Shown: positions 17,123 through 58,653 of the stretch, in pieces | Position numbering within the stretch: the stretch's first letter is position 1 | Layout of the letters: every line of letters starts with the position of its first letter | From: an uncultured Bacilli bacterium | GTDB lineage: Bacteria; Bacillota_I; Bacilli_A; RFN20; CAG-826 | DNA length: 64,000 nucleotides | NCBI GenBank assembly: GCA_944327845.1 | Contig: CALVHN010000006.1 | Location: forward strand, 1-64,000 | Direction: 5' to 3' | Notes under the pieces: model-generated | The model's database searches: none | What the model was told of the DNA's origin: nothing | Seen by the model: only the letters and a program-made list of their open reading frames with translations | Program-made: the position numbers and the translations under genes

Positions 17123-17871
17123 TTATTCTGCTGTATAAGTGAAAGTTAAACCATAAAAAGCAAATCTACATTCACTAGCATTGGCTGCTTCAATTGTTAT
17201 AGTGCTTGTTGGCTCAGTAAATTTAAATGTTTCAGTTTTCATTCCTGTAGAATCAAATGTATATGTTCCAGCAATTTTTGAATTAGCATCTAAGACATTA
17301 TAAGATGCAGGATCTTGATCCCACTTCATTGCTTCAATAGTAATTTCTGTTACATCAACGGTTGTTTCAAATGTAAGAACACCAGCTTCTGATTTAGAAG
17401 AAAATTTAATACCTGACTTTTCAAAACTTGAGGAGTAGTAAACCTTTGTAGCGGTTGTGACACCACTAATTACTATATCTTCTTTACTTTGAGCGCCTTT
17501 ATTCAAAATTTCTGCAGCGTTCTCTGTAGTTAAAGTTTGACTTTTTGTCCATGAATCATTAGTTAAAGTTTCCATTTTGTCAAAACTATATACAGCTTTT
17601 TTTACATCAGTAGGAGCTGGATTTATTGTAATTGTAACTTCATTGCTTGTAATATCGCCAACTTTAGCAACTACTTTAACCGTTCCTTCAGCTTTTCCGG
17701 TTAAAACATTTTCTTCAAGAGTAGCAAATTCATTTCCTTCAGTAATTTCATAAACAACATCACCTGTTGCACCGACTGGTAAAAGATCAGCATTTAACTT
17801 TGTTGTATCACCAACATTAATTTCGGTTGCAGTAGCTGTTAAGTCAATTGATTCTAATGTAATCTCAATTT
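17123..17871 (-). pseudogene. Frameshifted C-terminal part of the large TasA-like/Big2 protein
   Basis: In the frame one base off from the gene upstream, an uninterrupted reading frame runs from the A5 run (17869-17873) to the stop at 17123. Its first ~80 residues are a clear second Big2-type Ig domain (LESIDLTATATEINVGD, then KLNADLLPVGATGD, ending VTITINPAP). A ~160-residue beta-rich domain follows, containing ETLTNDSWTKSQTL and TFTYTAE. There is no start codon or ribosome site at the junction. The fragment therefore makes sense only as a continuation of the 17854-19686 gene through a -1 shift or one added base. An internal ATG at 17575 lies inside the last domain and is unlikely to be a true start. 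Confidence 0.7.
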
Positions 17872-19686
17872 TTCGAGTTTACTTCCATCACCAAGGAAAG
17901 CAAATTGAGCGCCTTTAAACCAGCTTAAAGGTGTTGTTACTTTATATAAAGCACCTTTTTCTAATTCAGTGGTAATTTCGTTTTCATCATTTTTGTCTGT
18001 TCTTAAAGTAACTTCTGTATCTCCGATTTTCCATGTCGTATTTACAGCATCTCCTTGGGAAGGTGTTCCACTAACATATTCAGCTGTAAATGTATACATT
18101 TTACCAGCGTCGCTGTCTTTTAAAGCTTTGAATCCTTCTTCATCAATTTCAATTGGTGTCATAGGAGTAATTGTATCATCGTCAAGTTCTGTAATAGAAA
18201 TTTCATCACTGCCAGTAGTCTTGAAACCAGAAACTTGGAATAAACCATTATATACATCAACTTGTCCATGAATAAGATATTCTTTACCAATTGTCCAGTT
18301 AGGTTTTAAATCTAAAAAGTTATAAATATATAAACCATTAGTATTATCAGCAATGTAAGCACTATTTCCAATTGTTGCTACTACTTCACCTTTAACAGTA
18401 ACCCATTCACCATCTTCTGCTGTTTCTTTAACTTGATCAATTGTTAAATATTCTACAGTAGCTGGCTCATTAACAGTAACAACACATGTTGCGGTTTGAT
18501 CTCCAGCTTTAGCTGTAATTGCAGCTTGTCCAGTTCCAACAGCAGTAACTACTCCATCTTCAACAGTAGTAACTTCTTTATTTGAGCTTTCCCAAGTAAC
18601 AGTTTTATCAGTAGCTGTATCTGGTAAAACAGTAGCATTTAAAGTTTCACTTCCTCCAATTTCAAGAGTAAGTTCTGTTTTATTTAATGTAATAGATTCA
18701 ACTTCAACTACAGATGGAACATCTTCAACAACTTTCCAATCAAATGTATATGTTTTGTTAGCTTCAAATTCATAAGTTCCAGTATAAACATTTGAATATG
18801 TTAATTCAGGATTTTTAGCTTGAGAAGGTTCAGCTTTTGTTAATTTGATAGTATCAGTAGAATTTCCATCAATAGTAACATTTAAATCTCCACTTAAAAC
18901 GTAGCCATCTGCAACACTTAAAGTAATATCTTGTTCTCCAGCCAAGATTTTTCCATCTTCATTAGTATTAGCAACTTCTAAATATGAATTAGCTATAGCA
19001 ACTTCATCAGTTGGTTCTAATTTAACATCACCTGTAACTTCTTCAACAGGAGTAGTTTCTTCATTACTTGCTGAGAAAATAGCTTTAAATGTAACACCAT
19101 TTAATGCTTCTTCTAATGCAGCAAAGTTAGTTTCTTGTTCTTCTCTTGTTAATTTATCCCAAACGACTTGTGGATTAGCTCCAAGTTTATCACTCCAACC
19201 AACTGATACAGTAACTGGTTTACCTGTTTCTTTATATTCTTCTGTTAACCAATCAGTATAAGTAAATGTTTGAGCTTTTGGTAATTTAACATAATCAAAG
19301 AATGGATCAGTTGAAGAAAGTTCTGTTTCTCCTTCATAAGCTTTTAATTCAACTTTTAATGTAGGTTGATATTGTGTAGCAACTTTACCCCAATCAAAAC
19401 CATAAGGTTCAAATCCATCAACGCCTTCTGCTTTAACAGTATAATCGATTGATAAATGTTCATTGCCGCCCATTTCAACTGGTGCATCAAAAACAAATGT
19501 TTCAGAAGAATCTTTTCTTGTTGCAACAATATTAAATGAACGATAAGAAGTTTCAGTAACGACTTCTGGTGTAATATCATCTGTTGTAGGGGTATATGTA
19601 CCATTAATTACCCAAGCACCAAGACCTGTAGCAACGAGTGCTCCAACGCTTAAAACACCTAATAAAAATTTTGCAGTTTTAGCCAT
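17854..19686 (-). CDS. Large TasA-like protein with Big2 and OB-fold-like domains, prematurely stopped by a frameshift
   Basis: ATG 19686 has GGAAG about 10 nt upstream. The 610-aa product has an N-terminal membrane segment (MAKTAKFLLGVLSVGALVATG), then GAWVINGTY and a TasA/camelysin-like body up to about residue 320. A Big2 Ig domain follows (about 330-415: ITLNKTELTLEIGGSETL), then a nucleic-acid/OB-fold-like segment (about 420-600: WVTVKGEVVATIGNSAYIAD). It ends abruptly at TAG 17854-17856 right after KLEKLRLH, just where the next Big2 domain should begin (K-I-E-I-T-L-E-S-I). With the downstream fragment the protein would be about 854 aa. It is the first gene of the SipW-like operon. Confidence 0.7.
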   Translation of the reverse strand: MAKTAKFLLGVLSVGALVATGLGAWVINGTYTPTTDDITPEVVTETSYRSFNIVATRKDSSETFVFDAPVEMGGNEHLSIDYTVKAEGVDGFEPYGFDWGKVATQYQPTLKVELKAYEGETELSSTDPFFDYVKLPKAQTFTYTDWLTEEYKETGKPVTVSVGWSDKLGANPQVVWDKLTREEQETNFAALEEALNGVTFKAIFSASNEETTPVEEVTGDVKLEPTDEVAIANSYLEVANTNEDGKILAGEQDITLSVADGYVLSGDLNVTIDGNSTDTIKLTKAEPSQAKNPELTYSNVYTGTYEFEANKTYTFDWKVVEDVPSVVEVESITLNKTELTLEIGGSETLNATVLPDTATDKTVTWESSNKEVTTVEDGVVTAVGTGQAAITAKAGDQTATCVVTVNEPATVEYLTIDQVKETAEDGEWVTVKGEVVATIGNSAYIADNTNGLYIYNFLDLKPNWTIGKEYLIHGQVDVYNGLFQVSGFKTTGSDEISITELDDDTITPMTPIEIDEEGFKALKDSDAGKMYTFTAEYVSGTPSQGDAVNTTWKIGDTEVTLRTDKNDENEITTELEKGALYKVTTPLSWFKGAQFAFLGDGSKLEKLRLH

Positions 19687-19984
19687 TTTAAATATTTCTT
19701 CCAATTTTAGACTATGCAAAAACAACCAAATACAATAAAAGATAATAATACTCTATTATAAATCATATTATTTAATAAATAGCCCTTCCATGTATTCATA
19801 GCATTTATATTTTACTAAAAATAAACTTTTAAGTAAAAAAAGAGATGTAAAAATATTGTAAAATAAAAATAATTTTAAAAAATAATTGAGTTTAGCAAAC
19901 TTTTTTTAATTTTTAATCTTAATAATAATTATTATTGAATGTTAAATTAATACAAACTTAACTTTGATAAAAATATCAAAAGAA
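19687..19984. other. Intergenic region upstream of the surface-fibre operon
   Basis: A TATAAT box on the minus strand at 19755-19760 is the likely operon promoter, giving a leader of about 60 nt. No good -35 box is visible. The rest is AT-rich with no gene and no clear structure. Confidence 0.45.
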
Positions 19985-31531: not shown

Positions 31532-31560
31532 AAAAGCATCACATTGTGATGCTTTTTTTA
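31532..31560 (+). terminator. Terminator after the PfkB-like gene
   Basis: Stem AAAAGCATCAC / GTGATGCTTTT with ATT loop followed by a T7 tract. Confidence 0.9.
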
Positions 31561-31601: not shown

Positions 31602-34571
31602 ATGATTAAAAAACTAATAACTTCAAAAAAATTTTGGATAATTTTCTGGCTTGTTTTGTATGTTATAGCAGGTGGTGTTTTAATTAGCGAATCTTTAATG
31701 CCTGGAGATATTTCTGCACAACATTCTAATGTTGTTGGTGGTGGTTTAGGAGATATTATTAACACAGTTGGCGGAGATCAAAGTGAAATAATAAACCCTA
31801 CATCAATTGAACTTCAAAACGAAGATAAAACCGTCTATATTGGAGATACTGAAGAGCTAAAATATAGTGTTTTCCCAGATGAATCATCTTTTAAAACAGT
31901 AATTTTTGAATCTTCTAATAATGAAATTGCTTCTGTTAATAAAGATGGATTGGTAAATTTTTTAAAGGCTGGGGAAGTAACAATAACAGTTAAACTTGAA
32001 TATGATGCAACACTTCTTGATACAGTAACTTATATAGTTATAGAAAAAGCTCCTACCAGTTTTACTTCTTTTATTACAAAAGAAAATTCTAATAATGAAT
32101 TAGAGAAAACTGATGGTATTTATTCTCTTGTAGAAAATAATTCATATTTAATTAGAAATATATTTGAGCCAATTGATTCAACTTTAACCAACTTAACTTA
32201 TAATGTACTTGAACCAAATTATCAAAACTATTTTACTATCAAGGATAATTTAATTACGGTTATTGAATCATCAAATGATAAAGTTTTTACAATTGAAATA
32301 AAAACAGAAAACAATTTAGTTAATAGCATTAAAATTAAATGCGCTTCTAACGAAATAAACGTAATACCTTTAACTTCAATAAGTGTAAATCAAAAACAAT
32401 ACGTTTTCCCAGTTGGTTTTACTCTTAATCTTTCATCTAATCAATATGTTGGATTAGTATTTACCCCAAATAATGCAACATATAAAGACTTTACTTTAAC
32501 CAGTGAAAATAAAGATGTTGCTACTATTAATAACAAAACCATTAAAACCATTAGTTATGGAGAGAGTTTAATTACTATAAAATCAAGAAATTACCCTGAG
32601 ATTTCAACAACTTTTACAATTAAAGTTGAAGAGATACCAATTGAAGGCTTTGAAATTTATTCAAGTGGAGGAAATTCATTAATAGTTGGGAAAACATATA
32701 GTTTAAACGTTAGAAATATAACTCCTGAGTTAAATTCAGCAAGTTATGGAAATAAAAATGACTATTTCTTTTATTCTTCTTCTAATACTAATGTAATTGA
32801 ATTTACAAGAGATAATGGAAGCTTTACTTGTAAAAGTGCAGGGGAAGCAACTTTAACTTTATCAATCTTAAAATCTTTAAATGGCGATACTAAATTATAT
32901 GTTACAAAGAGTTTAACAGTAAGCGTCTCTAATTCCAAAGAAGTAAACGATTTTACATTTAATACAAATTTTGAAAATCTAAAAAACGTAAATATTTTAA
33001 AAGCTAATAAATCATATAATTTAAAAAATAATATAACTTTTGCAAGCCTTTTACATGAAAACGCTACAATTTACGATTTAACAAATTATAATACGACACT
33101 ACATTTTTATTATGAAAATGCTAAAACAAACACTTTAATACTTGAAGATAATAAAGATCATAATCTAGAAATTAGAATATATCCTTATTTAAATAGAAAC
33201 GATTTTTATCTTTCTAAAATAATTACTCTTCATGTTTTTTATGATATTAATTCAATTAATTTAAGTAATGGAAATAATTTAACAAACAAAAGTCAAACAA
33301 TAAATATAGATAATAAGAAATATTTTCTTTACGGTGAAGTTAACTTAGATGTTTACGAAAATCTCACTGGCATTATTAATTCTAAGTCAGAACAGATTTT
33401 TTCTGTTTCTATATTAAACTCTAGTAATTCAGACTTAATTTTTAATTACACAGATTCTACGAAGAGCTTCAATGTTAGAGGTGAAAAAGCAGGAACATAT
33501 TACCTTGTTATTTCCCCTTTTATTGATCTTACAGATTTTAAATATATTCTTAAGATAAATGTTAGTGATGTTATTCCTACTAAACTTAATATTAAATTTG
33601 AATTAAATGGAAGCAATCTTACATATGAAACAATAAAAGAAGGCGATAAAGAAATAATAATATTAGGTAGCAGAATGCAAAAAACTGATACTCCTGCTGT
33701 TCCTTTAAGTGTTAATAATATACTTGAATTTTCGCTCATTTATGACAAAAACCCTACTAAAACAGAATATTTTTATGAAATTGATAACCAAATAATTACT
33801 ATAAATCAACCAAATATCTACTTGAATAAGGAAGGTATAGTAAATATTACGATAAGAGAAAAATATAGTGAACTTTCATTAAATATAAGATTGTTTATCA
33901 CTAATATTATTAAATTAAATGAAACAAATCCTTATTCTATTACTAAAAGTGGACAACATAATGGAAAAATTGAATATATTCAAGAAATTAACACCTTTAA
34001 TATTACTAAAGGTTTTTCCTATTCAATTAAACTTAATTTTACAGAAGATTCAACTTACAAAAACGCTGTTTATTCTTCCTCTAATGAAGAAATAGTTTAT
34101 ATTGGCCAAAATGGTACATTTTCAGCTTTAAATAATGGCGAATCTGAAATATCTATTACTATCGATGATAAAATCTCACAAGGAGTAAGCATTAATTTTA
34201 AGATTAATATCGTTGATGCTTTAATAACTGATTCAATTAATAATTTCTTTTTACTTGTAAGAAAAGGTTTAGGACATTTTGGGGCGTTCTTGTGTTTTGG
34301 AATTTGTTCAACATTATTCTATATGCTTGTATCTGATAAGAAAGATTGGATATTTATGATTCCTATCAATTTCCTTCAAGGATTAACAATTGCTAGTTTC
34401 ACTGAATTATGTCAATCTTGGGTTCCTGGGCGTGGTCCAACGTTCAATGATGTATTAATAGATTTTTCTGGATTTATGACTTCAGCAGTCATAATTACTT
34501 TAATATTTATAGTAATTGAACTTGTTAAATATTTAAAAAGTAAGAGGAAAATAACTAAAGATGGCGAATAA
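31602..34571 (+). CDS. VanZ-family membrane protein with ~850-residue extracellular Ig-like insertion
   Basis: The 989-aa protein begins with one membrane segment (residues ~10-30) followed by SESLMPGDISAQHSN, the conserved loop after helix 1 of VanZ-like proteins. The rest of the VanZ domain is at the far C-terminus (from about 885): KGLGHFGAFLCFG, TELCQSWVPGRGPTFNDVLIDFSG and further hydrophobic segments. Between the two parts lies a serine/asparagine-rich, beta-rich insertion with Big2-type repeats, the clearest at ~65-145 (IELQNEDKTVYIGD, ASVNKDGLVNFL). VanZ proteins are linked to glycopeptide or lipoglycopeptide tolerance, mechanism unsettled. The stop overlaps the next gene by 11 bp. 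Confidence 0.75.
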   Translation: MIKKLITSKKFWIIFWLVLYVIAGGVLISESLMPGDISAQHSNVVGGGLGDIINTVGGDQSEIINPTSIELQNEDKTVYIGDTEELKYSVFPDESSFKTVIFESSNNEIASVNKDGLVNFLKAGEVTITVKLEYDATLLDTVTYIVIEKAPTSFTSFITKENSNNELEKTDGIYSLVENNSYLIRNIFEPIDSTLTNLTYNVLEPNYQNYFTIKDNLITVIESSNDKVFTIEIKTENNLVNSIKIKCASNEINVIPLTSISVNQKQYVFPVGFTLNLSSNQYVGLVFTPNNATYKDFTLTSENKDVATINNKTIKTISYGESLITIKSRNYPEISTTFTIKVEEIPIEGFEIYSSGGNSLIVGKTYSLNVRNITPELNSASYGNKNDYFFYSSSNTNVIEFTRDNGSFTCKSAGEATLTLSILKSLNGDTKLYVTKSLTVSVSNSKEVNDFTFNTNFENLKNVNILKANKSYNLKNNITFASLLHENATIYDLTNYNTTLHFYYENAKTNTLILEDNKDHNLEIRIYPYLNRNDFYLSKIITLHVFYDINSINLSNGNNLTNKSQTINIDNKKYFLYGEVNLDVYENLTGIINSKSEQIFSVSILNSSNSDLIFNYTDSTKSFNVRGEKAGTYYLVISPFIDLTDFKYILKINVSDVIPTKLNIKFELNGSNLTYETIKEGDKEIIILGSRMQKTDTPAVPLSVNNILEFSLIYDKNPTKTEYFYEIDNQIITINQPNIYLNKEGIVNITIREKYSELSLNIRLFITNIIKLNETNPYSITKSGQHNGKIEYIQEINTFNITKGFSYSIKLNFTEDSTYKNAVYSSSNEEIVYIGQNGTFSALNNGESEISITIDDKISQGVSINFKINIVDALITDSINNFFLLVRKGLGHFGAFLCFGICSTLFYMLVSDKKDWIFMIPINFLQGLTIASFTELCQSWVPGRGPTFNDVLIDFSGFMTSAVIITLIFIVIELVKYLKSKRKITKDGE

Positions 34572-35655
34572 ACAAAAAAGGGATTATTACTTCTTAACAA
34601 ATTATCTTGAAGATTATTTAGAACCTCTTAGTGAAAACAATCTTAATGAATTAGATTTTGCGATATTTTGTAAACTCTCTTATTACAATTTTGGAATATT
34701 TAAGGATTTAATTAAAAAGGGTAAAACAATAAAAATAAAAGATTATTATGATCTTAGATATATTAAGGATTTCTTAAAAGAAGACTATCTTATAGAAGAT
34801 GAATATAATTTTTTTATTACACTTGTTTCAAATCCACGATTTAAAAATATAAAAGTTAGTTATTATAAAGAAAAATTAAATACGAAAAAATCTGAAGAAT
34901 TCACAGCAATGACATTCGATGTTAAAAAATTTAAAATTATTGCTTTTCGTGGAACAACTTTAAATTATCATGGATGGAAAGAAAATTTTGAAATGACTTT
35001 TCAATATCCAATACCTTCTCAAGCAAGTGCGTTAAAATATTTGAATCACGAAATTAATTTATCAAGCAATATACCAATTTATTTATGTGGGCATTCAAAA
35101 GGTGGAAACTTAGCAATTTATTCATATTTAAATTTAGATGAGAAACATCAAGAAAAAGTTAGAAAGATCTATGCTTATGATTCACCTGGTTTAGAAAATT
35201 ATGATACTTCTATTGCTAAATTAAATGGGGTTTTAGAAAAATTTTGTCCTTATGCATCAGTAATTGGAATGCTTTTTGATGATAGAATTTACACTTCAAT
35301 TTGCAAATCTAATGCTGATTATTTTTCACAACACGATCTATTTAATTGGCAAATAGATAAGAAAACATATAGTTTTTGTAAATTATTGGACTTCAATCCA
35401 TTAACAAATTTATTTAATTTACGTTTAAATAATTATGTTCGAGCTAAAAATCTTGAAGATAGAAAATTTGCTGTTACTTTATTATTTAAATTAATAAAAA
35501 ATGTAAACTTTACTTCGGATAGCGATATAAAATTTGATGTCTTTAATATTTATAAGCAATTAAAAGATGAGTTTATAAAAGAACCTGTTGAGGTCAGAAA
35601 TAAAGCTAAAAAACTTATGTCAGAAATTTTAAATTATCTTATAAAAGGTAAATAA
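34561..35655 (+). CDS. DUF2974/Mbeg1-like alpha/beta-hydrolase (lipase-like)
   Basis: The 364-aa protein shows the DUF2974 (Mbeg1-like) pattern: IIAFRGTTLNYHGWKENFEM near residue 123 and the nucleophile elbow CGHSKGGNLA near 178-187, followed by AYDSPGLE. This family resembles class 3 lipases and is common in Firmicutes; the substrate is unknown. There is no signal peptide, so it acts in the cytoplasm or at the inner membrane face. It overlaps the VanZ-like gene by 11 bp, so the two are probably translated together. A weak AGAGGA lies about 14 nt before the ATG. Confidence 0.8.
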   Translation: MANKQKRDYYFLTNYLEDYLEPLSENNLNELDFAIFCKLSYYNFGIFKDLIKKGKTIKIKDYYDLRYIKDFLKEDYLIEDEYNFFITLVSNPRFKNIKVSYYKEKLNTKKSEEFTAMTFDVKKFKIIAFRGTTLNYHGWKENFEMTFQYPIPSQASALKYLNHEINLSSNIPIYLCGHSKGGNLAIYSYLNLDEKHQEKVRKIYAYDSPGLENYDTSIAKLNGVLEKFCPYASVIGMLFDDRIYTSICKSNADYFSQHDLFNWQIDKKTYSFCKLLDFNPLTNLFNLRLNNYVRAKNLEDRKFAVTLLFKLIKNVNFTSDSDIKFDVFNIYKQLKDEFIKEPVEVRNKAKKLMSEILNYLIKGK

Positions 35656-52866: not shown

Positions 52867-55800
52867 CTACTTATTTTGATTTAAAGAAATTAAATTACTA
52901 TTTTTCTTAAAGATATTATAACAATTTAAAATAAAGTTAATAATTAAAGAAAGTTTCTCATTTATTGAAGAAGTTACATTCACAACTCCAAATTCATAAG
53001 CAACATATTTAATTAAATCGTTTAATAATATTTCACCTTGAAGCTCAAGAATGTCAATCATTGCATTTTTTATTTCAACTGCTGGAATTGCTTCAATGGG
53101 TCTTTGGAACAAAGAAGAAGCACGATAATAAGATATATCATTTTCGCTTTTTCCGTATGGATAATAAAATACATCGTTTAATTCATATGATTTATAAACT
53201 TTTGCATTATTCATTTGTAATGCAAATAATCTTTTAACTTTAGTTCCAGCTTTATCAACATTAATTATTTTCTTAAATCTTTCAAGCAATAAATTTTCTG
53301 AAATTGGTCCTTCATTTAAAATAGTGTCTTCCAAATATTTAACAAGATTTGGATATACCTCTTCTTTTAAATCATCATAATTGATGGTAGTTGATATATC
53401 ATATGTTCGATACTCCATTTTTCTTTTTGAAGGAAGATTAGAGACTTTTTTAAAAATAATATCATCTTTATCGACTTCATTTATAACATTAGATTTTAAA
53501 TTTTCAATATTCTTTAAGGAATTAACTATGTCATTAATAACTGTTGATTTATCTTTAAAATAATCAAGAGTATATATCCTAATAATTTTCCAATTAAGAC
53601 GTTTTAAAACAGAAGTTTGGACATAATTTCGATCACGACAAGTTGGAGATTTTAAATAAGAATCACTATCACAAATCACACCTAAAATATATTGATTTTT
53701 CTTATCTTTAATACATAAATCAATTTTAAATTTAGAATCACCTACATTAATATCCGAATCAATTCCAAGTTCTTTTAAATCCTTTTGGATGTATTTTTCA
53801 ATACCATCTTTTTTATTAATTTCAAACTTATTGTCAATAATTAAAGTTGAAACGCCGTTTTCAGCATAATTTAAAAATCCCTTTAAAATCATTGCTCCGT
53901 TATTTTTTGCTTTTCGAGGATCAATATCATTAGCTTTAATTGAAGAATATACAATCATTCTTTTCTTAGCGCGAGTTATTGCAACATTTAATCTTCTTTC
54001 ACCTTTATCTAATGATAATGGCCCAAAATTTAAAAGAAATTTATTATATTTATTAAAGCCAAATCCAATGGAAAAAATAATAACATCTCTTTCATCGCCT
54101 TGAACATTTTCTAGATTTTTAACAAATAATTGTTCTTCATTTTCTTGATTAATTCGATTAAATTCAGGATTAGAATCAAATAAATTTTGAATAAGCTTTG
54201 ATATATATTCTTGTTGCTTAATATTAAATGTCACAATACCGATAGTTTCGTGGCATAAAGAAGGAGAAGAAAATCTTCTTTTTACTTCTTTTAAAATTTC
54301 GTTTGCTTCATCTTTATTTATTCCATTTTCATATAAGCCATCTGGTAAATATTTAAGCTCAACTCTCGATTTTTTATTATCAGGAGATGGGAAAGTATAT
54401 AAATTGTGATCATAAAAAGTGTTATTTGAAAAAGCAATTAATGATTCATGACTTGAACGATAATGCCATAAAAGTCTATTTCTTTTCATTTTTAAGGCAA
54501 TACAATCATCTAATAACGATTCTAAGTCTTCTAAATCTACTTGATCGCTATATGTTTCATTATTTGAAAGATTAGCTTTAAAGAAATTTGTTGGAGGCAT
54601 TTGTTGAGGATCCCCAGCAACAATTAATGATTTACCACGCGAAATTGCACCAATTGCTTCGCAAGTTGGAATTTGACTTGCCTCATCAAAAATAACTACA
54701 TCAAATTTCTTGGTATTTAAACTTAAATATTGTGCTGCAGAAAGAGGAGACATTAAAAAACATGGACAGAATGTTCGAATTAAATCTTCATACTCTAAAA
54801 GCATATTTCTAATCGTTGTGCCACGCCCACCATTTTTAATTAACTTTCTTAAAGCATAAAACTTTGAAGATGTTGCATATTTAACATTAAGAAGTGGAAA
54901 GTTTTCTGTTAAAACATTTGCTGTTTTTTCTATAACTAAAACTGAATATTCATTCAATAAATCATTATATTTTTTAATAGCTTGGTTAAATAATAAACCA
55001 TTAAATTCATTAAAATAAGGATCCTTAAAATATTCATTTATTATTACTTTATAAAAAGAAACTAAAAATCTATTTTTAATCTCTTTTGAAGTTATAACTC
55101 CAAGACGAAGGTCTTTTAAAATATTCACATTAAACTTTTCATTTAATAAATCATCTCTAAGTTTATTAAATAAAATCACATTATTTAAATAATTTCTATT
55201 ATTTAATCCTTTATCTACCATAGCAAAATATGTTGATAAATATGTGTTGTTATCAATATCGAAAAGATAATCTAAATTATAGGTATAATTTTCAACTAAT
55301 TCTTGTTCTAAGCTGTTAATTTTATCAAAAGAATTAACCATCTTTTCAATTAAAGAACTAATTAAAAACTCGTCTTTTTTATCAAAAACCTGCTCAAACA
55401 AGGATATATTTTTAAATTTTTCTTCATCGTTTAATTCTAAATTAAAGTTATTTACTTGATTTACAAATTCATAAGTTACCTTAAATATCTCAAGCATTTT
55501 TGAAAAGTCATTAGTTAATAAATTATCTTTAAAAGTGAAGCTTTTTTCTAAAATATATTTATTATTTTGAATATATTCAGACTTTTCCTTATATAAAACA
55601 AGTGTACCAAGATATTTTTCAACATCTTTTCTTTTAACTTTTACTATTTTTTTATTTTTGTTATATGAGTTCAATTCTTTTGCTATCTTAGATTTTAGTT
55701 TAAAACGTTTAAATAAAGCTTTCTTATTTTTATTTATTAAATCTAAATATAATGAAGCATCAACTTTTAATATTTTTAAATCAAAAATACTTGATATGAA

Positions 55801-58653
55801 ATCTATTGCTTTATTAAGTTCAACTCCTGCCTCTAAAACATTTAAATTAATTTGATAGTTATTTAAAAACTCGTTAGTAAAAATATGTCGGAAAACAATA
55901 GTTTTTTCATATATTTGTTTAATTATATTAATAAATTTTTTAAGATTTTCCCTGTTTTTTATAAAAGAAAAATTATAAATATTTAAAAAGCTAGTTAACG
56001 CACTATTTAAGTTACTTAATTCAAATTTTAAATTAGATAAACTAGCATATAAATTATCATTAAAAAGATGTTTTTCAATATTTTTATCAAACATCCTAAA
56101 TGGATTTTCTGATAATTCACCTCGAACTTTACTTATTGAAACTAAATTATCGATAAGGTCAATAATTGTATTAAAACTATCTTTATTAATTTTTAAAGCA
56201 TCCAAATAATTTTCGGAACCTTTAAAATCATAATCTTTTACTGCTTCAAAATGTAAAATTCCGTCATGTAAACTTTCAAAATATTTGATTTCTGTAGTCT
56301 TTTTGATTAAATTATTGAGTTCTTGTTTTTTCTTATCAAGTTCTAATGTTTGCTTTTCAAAATCAATTGGTGAAATAATCCTTTCAAGATTCATCGAATT
56401 TTCAATTTGATTTAAAAAGTCTTTTTTATTTGATTTATTTGAATGCAATTCAAGGCAAAAATTTCCTAGTTTAATCTCATCTATTCTTTTTTTAACTACT
56501 TCAAGAGCAACCATTTTTTCTGCAACAAATAAAACAGATTTTTTATTATAAAGGGCGTTGATTATCATATTTACGATAGTTTGAGATTTACCTGTACCTG
56601 GTGGACCATCCAAAACAAAACTATCACCTTTTGCACAGTCTATAATTGCTCGAACTTGACTTGAATCAGCATTTAAAGGTATAGCAATGTCATCAGAATG
56701 AATTTCATCATCAATTGCATTAAGAGAAGAATCATCTTTAGAATTTGAATATGTTCTTCTTTCAACTAAACACTTAATAATTTCATTTTCAAGCAATTGA
56801 TCTTTTCTTTTTTGAATATCATCCCAAATTATAAAATTAGCAAAATATAAAATAGAGATAAAAACTTTATTTTTTAAAATATTAATTTTACATTCATCAG
56901 AACTTTTACTATTAAATATATCTATAATTTTTTGATAAGTTTCAACAAAATCATCCTTACTTATATTTAATTCTTCATTAAATTCAAAATTAAAGTTAAG
57001 TTTTAAATATTCTATTAAAGTAGTGTTAATTGAAATGCCATCAAAATTAAGTTGTAATTCAAAGGAATGATTTATAAATTTACTTTTTGGAGTTAAAGGA
57101 ATTAAAAGTAAAGGACTATAAAAACTTTTTCTACTTTCTTTTGGAGTAAATTCAACTAATCCTATTGTTAAATATAAAGCATTTGATCCAGTCTCTTCAA
57201 TAATTGATTGAGCTTTTTTAATTAATGTTCGATAGTCTTCAATTGTTCCACTAATTCCAAATCTCCCATTTCTTTCTAATTCAACAATTTCTCTACTAGA
57301 AATTTCTTCTTCAGAAAAATCTAATTTATTTTCAATATTTTGAGGAGCGACATTTATTGCCTCTTTATTTTTAATAGAAGTTAAAAAATAACTTAAAGAA
57401 GATATAAAGACCGTAGGATTTTTCGTACCAATTTTAAAATTTATTAATTTATTTGATAAAGATAAATCTAATAATTTTTTACTCCAAAAATCAAATTTAT
57501 CGTTTTCATTAACTTTAAATTGATAAATATATTTATTAAAAATCGAAGTATCAATTTTAAATTCAGTGTTTGCAAAAGAATATTTATCAAATTCCTTTTG
57601 AGCATTTATAAATTGAAGTTCTGGTATTGGACGAAAAATAGAATGGTGTGATTTTAAAATATCAATTGCATCAATTTCTTTATTATATTTAGCTAAAATT
57701 CTCTTAGCGCTTTCAATCGAACTATTAAAACTATAATCTTTATAATTGGATGTAAAAAATATTGGATCAACAAATAACAATCTATTTTGAATAAAATCTT
57801 TTGTAATCTTTTTTAAATCTTTTTCAATATAGTTATCAAAGGAGAAAGGTTCTAAAAATAATCCTGGAAGAATGTAATTTTCTAAAACTAATAATATTGG
57901 ACGATAGCCTATTGCTTCAATAATTGATAAAAATAATAAGGATAGCTCTAATATTGTACCTTTTCTCTCTTTTAAAGTTTCATATGGTAATTTAATTTTT
58001 ATAAATAAATCTTTAAAATTTTTTTCGATTAAAGTAAAGTTTTTATCTTTTAATGTTAAATATATACTTTCAATTTCTTCCTTAATTGAAAGTATATCGT
58101 TACTTTGATAATTGGAATAAAGTGTAGGTTTATTCCTAATGTTCATTAAATCAATGTAAGAAACTTTAATTATTTCACCAATTTCACTATTATTTGGAGT
58201 AACAAATGATGGTAAAGTAGTTAAATCAAGTTCATTTTTATAAGAACAATTTAATGGAAGAAGATTTATTTCTTTATCTTCGCTAAATAATACCTCATTC
58301 TTATTATTTATTAATTCTATTGTTAGAACTAATTTTAAATCATAAGCTAAATTAAATAATTTTTCTTGATTAAAAATAATATTTATATTTTCAAAAATAG
58401 TTGATTTAGTTTTAGCAGTAATTGAATTTAAACAAATCTCATCAATTTTTAAAATATCATAATTAGCTTTAAATTTTATTTTTGCATCAATTAAGTCAAA
58501 ATCAGAATCATTAATAATTTCGATTTTATCAATTAAAGAATAAAAAGAAGCCTTGTTTGTCTTATTTTTTAATTGATAATTTAAAGCAGTTAAATAATTT
58601 AAAAAATCATAATTATTTTTAATAGAAACATTAAGCCTAAAATTATTGCTCAT
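52867..58653 (-). CDS. 1928-aa DUF4011/SF1 helicase/nuclease/DUF3320 protein (candidate defence protein)
   Basis: The domain order is as follows. A beta-rich start leads into DUF4011 near residues 385-700, containing FWSKKLLDLSLSNKLINF. An SF1 helicase follows, with Walker A DGPPGTGKS near 682, VVIFDEASQIP near 1322, GDPQQMPPT, and RRLNVAITRAKKR near 1561. A small Vsr/MTES_1575-like nuclease region comes near 1640-1700 (ICDSDSY, DRNYVQTSVLKRLNWKIIRI), and DUF3320 ends the protein (IPAVEIKNAMIDIL). Such giant helicase-nuclease proteins occur as single-gene defence candidates (Hhe-like architecture, recalled with limited certainty). The gene is alone and has no Shine-Dalgarno. TATAAT ends 7 nt before the ATG. 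Confidence 0.8.
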   Translation of the reverse strand: MSNNFRLNVSIKNNYDFLNYLTALNYQLKNKTNKASFYSLIDKIEIINDSDFDLIDAKIKFKANYDILKIDEICLNSITAKTKSTIFENINIIFNQEKLFNLAYDLKLVLTIELINNKNEVLFSEDKEINLLPLNCSYKNELDLTTLPSFVTPNNSEIGEIIKVSYIDLMNIRNKPTLYSNYQSNDILSIKEEIESIYLTLKDKNFTLIEKNFKDLFIKIKLPYETLKERKGTILELSLLFLSIIEAIGYRPILLVLENYILPGLFLEPFSFDNYIEKDLKKITKDFIQNRLLFVDPIFFTSNYKDYSFNSSIESAKRILAKYNKEIDAIDILKSHHSIFRPIPELQFINAQKEFDKYSFANTEFKIDTSIFNKYIYQFKVNENDKFDFWSKKLLDLSLSNKLINFKIGTKNPTVFISSLSYFLTSIKNKEAINVAPQNIENKLDFSEEEISSREIVELERNGRFGISGTIEDYRTLIKKAQSIIEETGSNALYLTIGLVEFTPKESRKSFYSPLLLIPLTPKSKFINHSFELQLNFDGISINTTLIEYLKLNFNFEFNEELNISKDDFVETYQKIIDIFNSKSSDECKINILKNKVFISILYFANFIIWDDIQKRKDQLLENEIIKCLVERRTYSNSKDDSSLNAIDDEIHSDDIAIPLNADSSQVRAIIDCAKGDSFVLDGPPGTGKSQTIVNMIINALYNKKSVLFVAEKMVALEVVKKRIDEIKLGNFCLELHSNKSNKKDFLNQIENSMNLERIISPIDFEKQTLELDKKKQELNNLIKKTTEIKYFESLHDGILHFEAVKDYDFKGSENYLDALKINKDSFNTIIDLIDNLVSISKVRGELSENPFRMFDKNIEKHLFNDNLYASLSNLKFELSNLNSALTSFLNIYNFSFIKNRENLKKFINIIKQIYEKTIVFRHIFTNEFLNNYQINLNVLEAGVELNKAIDFISSIFDLKILKVDASLYLDLINKNKKALFKRFKLKSKIAKELNSYNKNKKIVKVKRKDVEKYLGTLVLYKEKSEYIQNNKYILEKSFTFKDNLLTNDFSKMLEIFKVTYEFVNQVNNFNLELNDEEKFKNISLFEQVFDKKDEFLISSLIEKMVNSFDKINSLEQELVENYTYNLDYLFDIDNNTYLSTYFAMVDKGLNNRNYLNNVILFNKLRDDLLNEKFNVNILKDLRLGVITSKEIKNRFLVSFYKVIINEYFKDPYFNEFNGLLFNQAIKKYNDLLNEYSVLVIEKTANVLTENFPLLNVKYATSSKFYALRKLIKNGGRGTTIRNMLLEYEDLIRTFCPCFLMSPLSAAQYLSLNTKKFDVVIFDEASQIPTCEAIGAISRGKSLIVAGDPQQMPPTNFFKANLSNNETYSDQVDLEDLESLLDDCIALKMKRNRLLWHYRSSHESLIAFSNNTFYDHNLYTFPSPDNKKSRVELKYLPDGLYENGINKDEANEILKEVKRRFSSPSLCHETIGIVTFNIKQQEYISKLIQNLFDSNPEFNRINQENEEQLFVKNLENVQGDERDVIIFSIGFGFNKYNKFLLNFGPLSLDKGERRLNVAITRAKKRMIVYSSIKANDIDPRKAKNNGAMILKGFLNYAENGVSTLIIDNKFEINKKDGIEKYIQKDLKELGIDSDINVGDSKFKIDLCIKDKKNQYILGVICDSDSYLKSPTCRDRNYVQTSVLKRLNWKIIRIYTLDYFKDKSTVINDIVNSLKNIENLKSNVINEVDKDDIIFKKVSNLPSKRKMEYRTYDISTTINYDDLKEEVYPNLVKYLEDTILNEGPISENLLLERFKKIINVDKAGTKVKRLFALQMNNAKVYKSYELNDVFYYPYGKSENDISYYRASSLFQRPIEAIPAVEIKNAMIDILELQGEILLNDLIKYVAYEFGVVNVTSSINEKLSLIINFILNCYNIFKKNSNLISLNQNK

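Follow-up and report, generated by a model that had tools for sequence, protein, structure and literature searches.

A VanZ membrane domain split by an array of immunoglobulin-like domains in uncultured Bacilli that appear to lack a cell wall

Introduction

The VanZ family is very widespread and is usually associated with the lipids of the cell wall and with resistance to antibiotics. What VanZ does biochemically has so far only been proposed, with lipid II and undecaprenyl-linked polysaccharides at the center of the proposals. Burroughs, Nicastro, and Aravind placed VanZ in the lipocone superfamily, in which an outer-leaflet pocket would act on phosphate-linked lipid head groups, and proposed lipid II and carrier-linked polysaccharides as the VanZ substrates (PMC12419801). 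In their account, the linker between helices 1 and 2 (H1-H2) is a variable element that guards the aperture in some lipocone families, and extracellular ligand-binding domains fused to the ends of lipocone proteins are taken as a sign of ligand-regulated enzymes (PMC12419801). The published fusions of VanZ and Skillet-3 with Ig, lectin, and other ligand-binding domains are terminal (SP+X+TM+Lipocone or Lipocone+TM+X) (PMC12419801).

Here we describe a VanZ protein that shares with these fusions the combination of VanZ and extracellular Ig-type domains but carries the added domains within the lipocone domain. By analogy with the characterized lipocone enzymes TelC and PTDSS1/2, which are not VanZ proteins, its chemistry would be on phosphate-linked lipid head groups. 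The added domains resemble, in sequence and fold, the tandem Ig-like sandwiches of Big_2 arrays (intimin/invasin, the S-layer proteins Sap/SbsC, and LigB) and of NUP210; unlike the array in split VanZ, none of these runs as a loop from one transmembrane segment to another within a single enzyme domain. We found no description of a VanZ protein with an internal Ig insertion in open-licence PMC text.

Results

The window analyzed here is a stretch of 64,000 nucleotides from the genome of an uncultured Bacilli bacterium. Positions 31602 to 34571 of the forward strand, which carries all features listed below unless stated otherwise, form a single uninterrupted open frame of 989 residues. We identified it as a split VanZ gene from this frame, from profile matches, from a two-piece hidden Markov model (HMM) match, and from an architecture common to 60 distinct proteins. 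The Pfam profile for the VanZ core (PF04892) matched residues 884 to 968 with 29.9 bits, just below its cutoff of 30.1, and scored 32.2 bits in the genome search. The NCBIfam profile vanZ_1 (NF037970) scored 38 bits against a cutoff of 20, which places the protein in the VanZ family. None of the Pfam or NCBIfam profiles marks the N-terminal helix of the 989-residue protein. Hence, we checked helix 1 with an HMM (169 model positions) trained solely on ordinary VanZ proteins of ~160 to 190 residues from relatives. This model aligned in two pieces, with positions 6 to 57 at residues 8 to 59 and positions 51 to 161 at residues 868 to 974. The two-piece match and the helices of an AlphaFold2 model together recover all core helices in order. 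By sequence comparison, the N-terminal half is a true VanZ helix 1, and no part of VanZ is missing.

Transmembrane helix 1 (VanZ/lipocone H1; residues 9 to 31, positions 31626 to 31694) was placed by hydropathy, by AlphaFold2, and by HMM positions 6 to 57. It is followed by the H1-H2 "handle" helix of the AlphaFold2 model (residues 35 to 57, positions 31704 to 31772), which carries the conserved residues G35, S38, and S42 of a PGxxSxxxS motif. After ~815 residues (61 to 875) come the other three helices, assigned from AlphaFold2 and alignment: helix 2 (residues 879 to 910, positions 34236 to 34331; R887, K888, G891, and H892), helix 3 (residues 913 to 938, positions 34338 to 34415; E935 and Q938), and helix 4 (residues 948 to 987, positions 34443 to 34562; D950, D954, and G957, with R944 just N-terminal to it). 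The N terminus has four K/R and no D/E residues, and the C terminus has six K/R residues. By the positive-inside rule, both termini lie inside, and the insert loop therefore lies outside.

The insert (residues 61 to 875, positions 31782 to 34226) is all beta, as judged from the secondary structure assigned to the AlphaFold2 model with DSSP, from Big_2 matches, and from Foldseek matches to Ig, cadherin, and S-layer arrays. Big_2 (PF02368) matched the protein with 69.2 bits (E value, 3e-19) and in three stretches at a loose cutoff; together with the Ig sandwich fold seen with AlphaFold2 and Foldseek, this match assigns the insert to the Big_2/Ig arrays. The AlphaFold2 model, built from an alignment of 15 long-class relatives (see below), consists of helices at residues 9 to 31 and 35 to 57, an all-beta region at 66 to 872, and helices at 879 to 910, 913 to 938, and 948 to 987; its pLDDT is 77, and with a pTM of 0.43 it does not fix the position of the eight-Ig array relative to the pocket. 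On our reading of the modeled strands, which sets the limits given here, the all-beta region is eight Ig-like sandwiches. Domain 1 (residues 66 to 150, positions 31797 to 32051) also contains the best Big_2 match. Domains 2 (151 to 250; 32052 to 32351), 3 (251 to 345; 32352 to 32636), and 4 (346 to 446; 32637 to 32939) follow from the strand pattern, as do domain 5 (447 to 548; 32940 to 33245), which has the lowest confidence (pLDDT down to ~52 to 60), and domains 6 (549 to 658; 33246 to 33575), 7 (659 to 772; 33576 to 33917), and 8 (773 to 875; 33918 to 34226). Foldseek and HMMER searches against solved structures returned NUP210, S-layer proteins, cell-adhesion molecules, intimin/invasin, and phage tail Big_2 domains. 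With the eight-Ig model, Foldseek found generic Ig arrays at TM-scores of ~0.1 to 0.2, which are informative on the domain fold alone.

The original prediction, made from the DNA letters, was that a single VanZ domain is split after its first helix, in the first extracellular loop, by a giant beta-rich insertion of ~850 residues with Big2 features. The two-piece match bears out the split, and the charge distribution and the modeled order of helix, Ig array, and three helices agree with the extracellular placement. The measured length is close to the predicted one, and both the Big_2 match and the modeled sandwiches fit the description of the insert. Structure prediction and a search for other VanZ proteins with an insertion in the same loop had been suggested as checks; the former recovered the expected order, and the latter found the 60 distinct proteins described next.

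Among 196 surveyed genomes from the family, VanZ frames fell into separate size classes of ~150 to 260, ~510 to 690, and ~930 to 1140 residues. The 60 split proteins come from many independent assemblies, and the break always lies between HMM positions ~57 and ~58. Model-normalized insert lengths were 343 to 441 residues in 40 proteins, 535 in one, and 727 to 938 in 19; Big_2 was detected in 13 of 15 long-class and 23 of 30 short-class proteins. AlphaFold modeled a short-class relative of 539 residues (L099; pLDDT, 90.9; pTM, 0.69) with four Ig sandwiches at the same site. Structure matches to this model included the four-Ig horseshoe proteins Dscam and Robo, but at TM-scores near 0.2, which are too low to support a horseshoe shape. 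Alignments of the two classes matched end to end in hhalign (E value, 2e-64), with the extra domains of the long class as an internal gap.

In a tree computed from the VanZ core without the insert, the split and ordinary forms clustered strongly: the two states required 10 changes, compared to a mean of 31 in shuffles, and none of 500 shuffles was as low. The 989-residue protein lies inside an all-split group, nearest to the protein of genome G007. Among 195 genomes sampled across the phylum, VanZ frames of >500 residues with a partial match were found solely in the source order; outside that order, full-profile matches occurred in short frames or in frames of ~360 to 480 residues, and a few partial matches occurred in short frames. 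Relatives with split VanZ include metagenome-assembled genomes labeled Bacilli, Erysipelotrichaceae, Clostridia, and Christensenellaceae. Two further observations concern copy number. G007, the genome with the closest intact relative, also has a second, decayed C-terminal stretch of split VanZ (G007:C36:5555-6223) that is 39% identical to the 989-residue protein and has six in-frame stops, and one genome has ordinary and split VanZ genes adjoining and convergent (L133:184-711 and 708-2510).

A fusion of two separate genes by assembly error would have undone the original prediction, and joining of two genes by assembly or gene prediction might be suspected from the broken frames of two relatives. 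In one of these (L111:5971-8741), however, the break is a run of N, and in the other (L154:4670-6363) it comes from overlapping frames before helix 2; the 60 intact proteins share one break point across independent assemblies. Such recurrence is neither chance nor assembly fusion, and we regard the probability of an artifact as negligible. The split architecture, which recurs in dozens of related and mostly wall-less genomes, is on these sequence comparisons real and old.

We compared the split proteins with 38 ordinary VanZ proteins. All 60 split and all 38 ordinary proteins have the same residues at R887, K888, H892, E935, Q938, R944, D950, and G957; the R, K, G, and H positions overlap the sequence pattern used to find some of the proteins, but there is no such overlap at the E, Q, R, and D positions, and loci from genome searches were fetched by Pfam profile rather than by residue pattern. 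Position 954 is D or N (N in 10 of the 60 split proteins). S38 is kept in 57/60 split proteins and S42 in 56/60, and both are kept in all 38 ordinary proteins. The polar active-site set of the lipocone is thus complete in every split protein, with H892 in H2, E935 in H3, and D950 in H4. The four-helix core with these H, E, and D positions, the DxxxD in H4 (D950 and D954), and the RK before the H2 histidine are shared with the VanZ family (PF04892/NF037970) and the VanZ-Skillet clade (PMC12419801). The RK and H are invariant and spaced RKxxxH in both the split and the short forms, compared to RKxxH in the published VanZ-2 motif, and H3 has ExxQ, which is given for the Skillet families and VanZ-1 (PMC12419801). 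The split proteins also differ from the VanZ family in the H1-H2 linker, where Ig-like domains add as many as ~940 residues.

The insert is far more variable: between the 989-residue protein and the G007 protein, the membrane parts are 54 to 60% identical and the inserts 34%, and insert identity across the long class is 16 to 26%. As far as sequences can tell, the membrane part behaves like a constrained enzyme, and the insert resembles an ectodomain that is diversifying. One reading of this pattern is surface display, in which a wall-less cell would use the Ig array as an adhesin or S-layer-like structural element and VanZ only as the bundle that anchors it in the membrane at two points. A fast-evolving Ig/Big_2-like insert fits such a role, as do the S-layer and cell-adhesion Ig arrays among the best Foldseek matches, and in a cell without a wall a wall-attached anchor would have nothing to hold. 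A mere anchor, however, would not require a pocket kept as strictly as in ordinary VanZ. Moreover, another Big_2 surface protein of 623 residues, encoded on the reverse strand of the window (positions 17854 to 19725), has a single N-terminal hydrophobic stretch and gets by with that simple anchor, so display alone needs no VanZ. We therefore consider this reading unlikely. Given the invariance of the pocket in both split and ordinary proteins, the VanZ membrane part probably works as an enzyme and does more than anchor the array.

We next consider the organism. The source genome (1.135 Mb; 96.9% complete) gave no match in profile searches for penicillin-binding protein (PBP) transpeptidase, FtsW/RodA, or MraY/WecA, nor for Bac_transf, undecaprenyl-diphosphate synthase (UppS), or trans-polyprenyl synthase. 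These absence calls rest on profiles in draft genomes, and control genomes matched as expected. Among 40 genomes tested, most of which have split VanZ, FtsW/RodA and MraY were above cutoffs only in G030, G046, G051, and G056, all four with split VanZ; transpeptidase was also found in G001, a genome of lower completeness with 4% contamination. UppS was absent from seven same-genus genomes with split VanZ (G000, G005, G006, G007, G018, G020, and G022). Trans-polyprenyl synthase (PF00348) was found in none of 16 genomes (the source genome and 15 relatives), some of which have UppS, FtsW, and PBPs. Peptidoglycan loss has been predicted for RFN20 families, and ispA has been noted as missing (PMC10868615; PMC7301438). 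The source bacterium appears from its gene content to be without a cell wall, and polyprenol may be taken up by scavenging.

These absences weigh against the suggestion in the original prediction that the protein senses wall precursors or glycopeptides. In S. aureus and S. pneumoniae, VanZ does lower the binding of teicoplanin (PMC7146870), and a wall-precursor sensor or glycopeptide resistance protein would be in keeping with that. However, peptidoglycan polymerase, transpeptidase, and MraY were not found in the source genome or in most split-VanZ genomes tested, and the gene sits in a two-gene unit without a sensor kinase or regulator. No van genes were recognized among the neighbors examined, and the locus differs from the VanA cluster type in having neither vanHAX/vanY linkage nor peptidoglycan markers in the genome. 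A sensor or resistance function is, in our judgment, very improbable.

A hairpin with a T-run between the PfkB gene and the VanZ gene (positions 31532 to 31559), read by eye and missed by a simple scan, is a probable terminator of the upstream gene; a promoter scan at the locus gave a signal no higher than shuffles. Downstream, a gene for an Mbeg1-like alpha/beta hydrolase (positions 34561 to 35655; PF11187; E value, 5.8e-55) overlaps the VanZ stop. The order PfkB-VanZ-Mbeg1 is kept only in the closest relative, G007, and Mbeg1 was not found beside split VanZ in the other genomes searched; the hydrolase is a probable coexpressed partner in this sublineage only. No gene neighbor conserved across the split-VanZ family was found at the loci examined. 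We rejected a general operon partner, since the neighbors range over ABC transporters, SmpB, PEPCK, pyrophosphatase, and polysaccharide genes. A lipase-like alpha/beta hydrolase directly adjoins split VanZ in the source genome, G007, L092, and L101. Elsewhere in the window, the reverse strand at positions 52867 to 58653 encodes a protein of 1928 residues with DUF4011, AAA_11/AAA_12 helicase, and MTES_1575 nuclease domains that looks defense related.

Some neighborhoods suggest a part in polysaccharide attachment or release, in which VanZ would act like a missing terminal enzyme of the WaaL type: with a polysaccharide of the cell surface held by the Ig loop, it would carry out transfer or cleavage at the lipid carrier. 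A frame at L068:4131-7382 (G072:C78) encodes a 1083-residue fusion of Bac_transf (PF02397), split VanZ with Big_2, and a GT4 glycosyltransferase. Several other split-VanZ loci adjoin genes for NDP-sugar epimerase, UDP-glucose dehydrogenase, or flippase, and a terminal-transfer role has been proposed for VanZ (PMC12419801). Against this, the source genome is without Bac_transf, MraY/WecA, UppS, and polyprenyl synthase, and most split-VanZ loci, including the source locus, lie outside polysaccharide clusters. We think this role decidedly unlikely. The gene upstream of the L068 fusion encodes an alpha/beta hydrolase fused to another GT4. At two same-genus loci with ordinary VanZ (L021 and L023), the neighbor is a multihelix frame of 436 to 471 residues that by eye resembles an O-antigen polymerase/ligase.

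Discussion

The reading we favor, to which we give about an even chance, is a lipocone enzyme with an Ig array in its H1-H2 loop; by binding a ligand at the surface, the array would gate the reaction or position it. The intact VanZ membrane enzyme would act on lipid head groups in the outer leaflet. The H1-H2 handle loop, beside the mouth of the active site, would be drawn out into an array of four or eight Ig-like domains outside the cell; since the array is tied at both ends to one membrane bundle, it must run out and back as a closed loop. The most likely ligand of the array is a glycan of the surface or something else outside the cell, and, with ligand bound, the array would either present the substrate to the pocket or gate it. 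The data show a single open frame, a fixed insertion point, an invariant pocket, a deeply conserved architecture, an Ig fold of the insert in the models, and no recognizable genes for peptidoglycan or polyprenol synthesis in the source organism; catalysis, ligand binding, gating, and the substrate we infer. The reading is favored by the pocket, the insertion point, the four-Ig model, the clustering in the core tree, the published head-group chemistry and view of terminal fusions (PMC12419801), the L068 fusion and the sugar or flippase neighbors, the adjoining hydrolases, and the plain anchor of the other Big_2 protein. Four points count against this reading of a ligand-controlled enzyme. VanZ itself has, to our knowledge, never been shown to be enzymatically active; the weak conservation of the insert, as far as sequence goes, also fits an adhesin or structural role; no neighbor conserved across the split family was found at the loci examined; and the eight-Ig model does not fix the array relative to the pocket.

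In the source genus, no gene for making lipid II was found, so lipid II is a less likely substrate than the head group of a glycerolipid or glycolipid. In relatives with a polyprenol synthase and adjoining polysaccharide genes, the substrate may be a carrier-linked polysaccharide. We advance tentatively, as a possible though doubtful specific case, that VanZ in cells without peptidoglycan or self-made polyprenol exchanges or cleaves the head groups of an ordinary glycerolipid or glycolipid of the membrane under the control of the extracellular Ig loop. If this is true, the ancestral or general VanZ substrate is not lipid II.

Both halves of the protein belong to known families; what is new is that the ectodomain sits within the lipocone and that VanZ is retained where wall and polyprenol synthesis appear to be lacking. 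It is also unusual for a small membrane enzyme domain to have a large Ig array threaded through it, held at both ends and occurring in discrete four- and eight-domain classes. The persistence of VanZ in wall-less relatives argues for a role other than acting on wall precursors. Since VanZ with an untouched pocket occurs in organisms that apparently make neither peptidoglycan nor polyprenol, the question of its substrate is directly testable. Split VanZ is also a candidate for coupling a ligand outside the cell to lipid chemistry in the membrane of gut bacteria that are abundant and uncultured.
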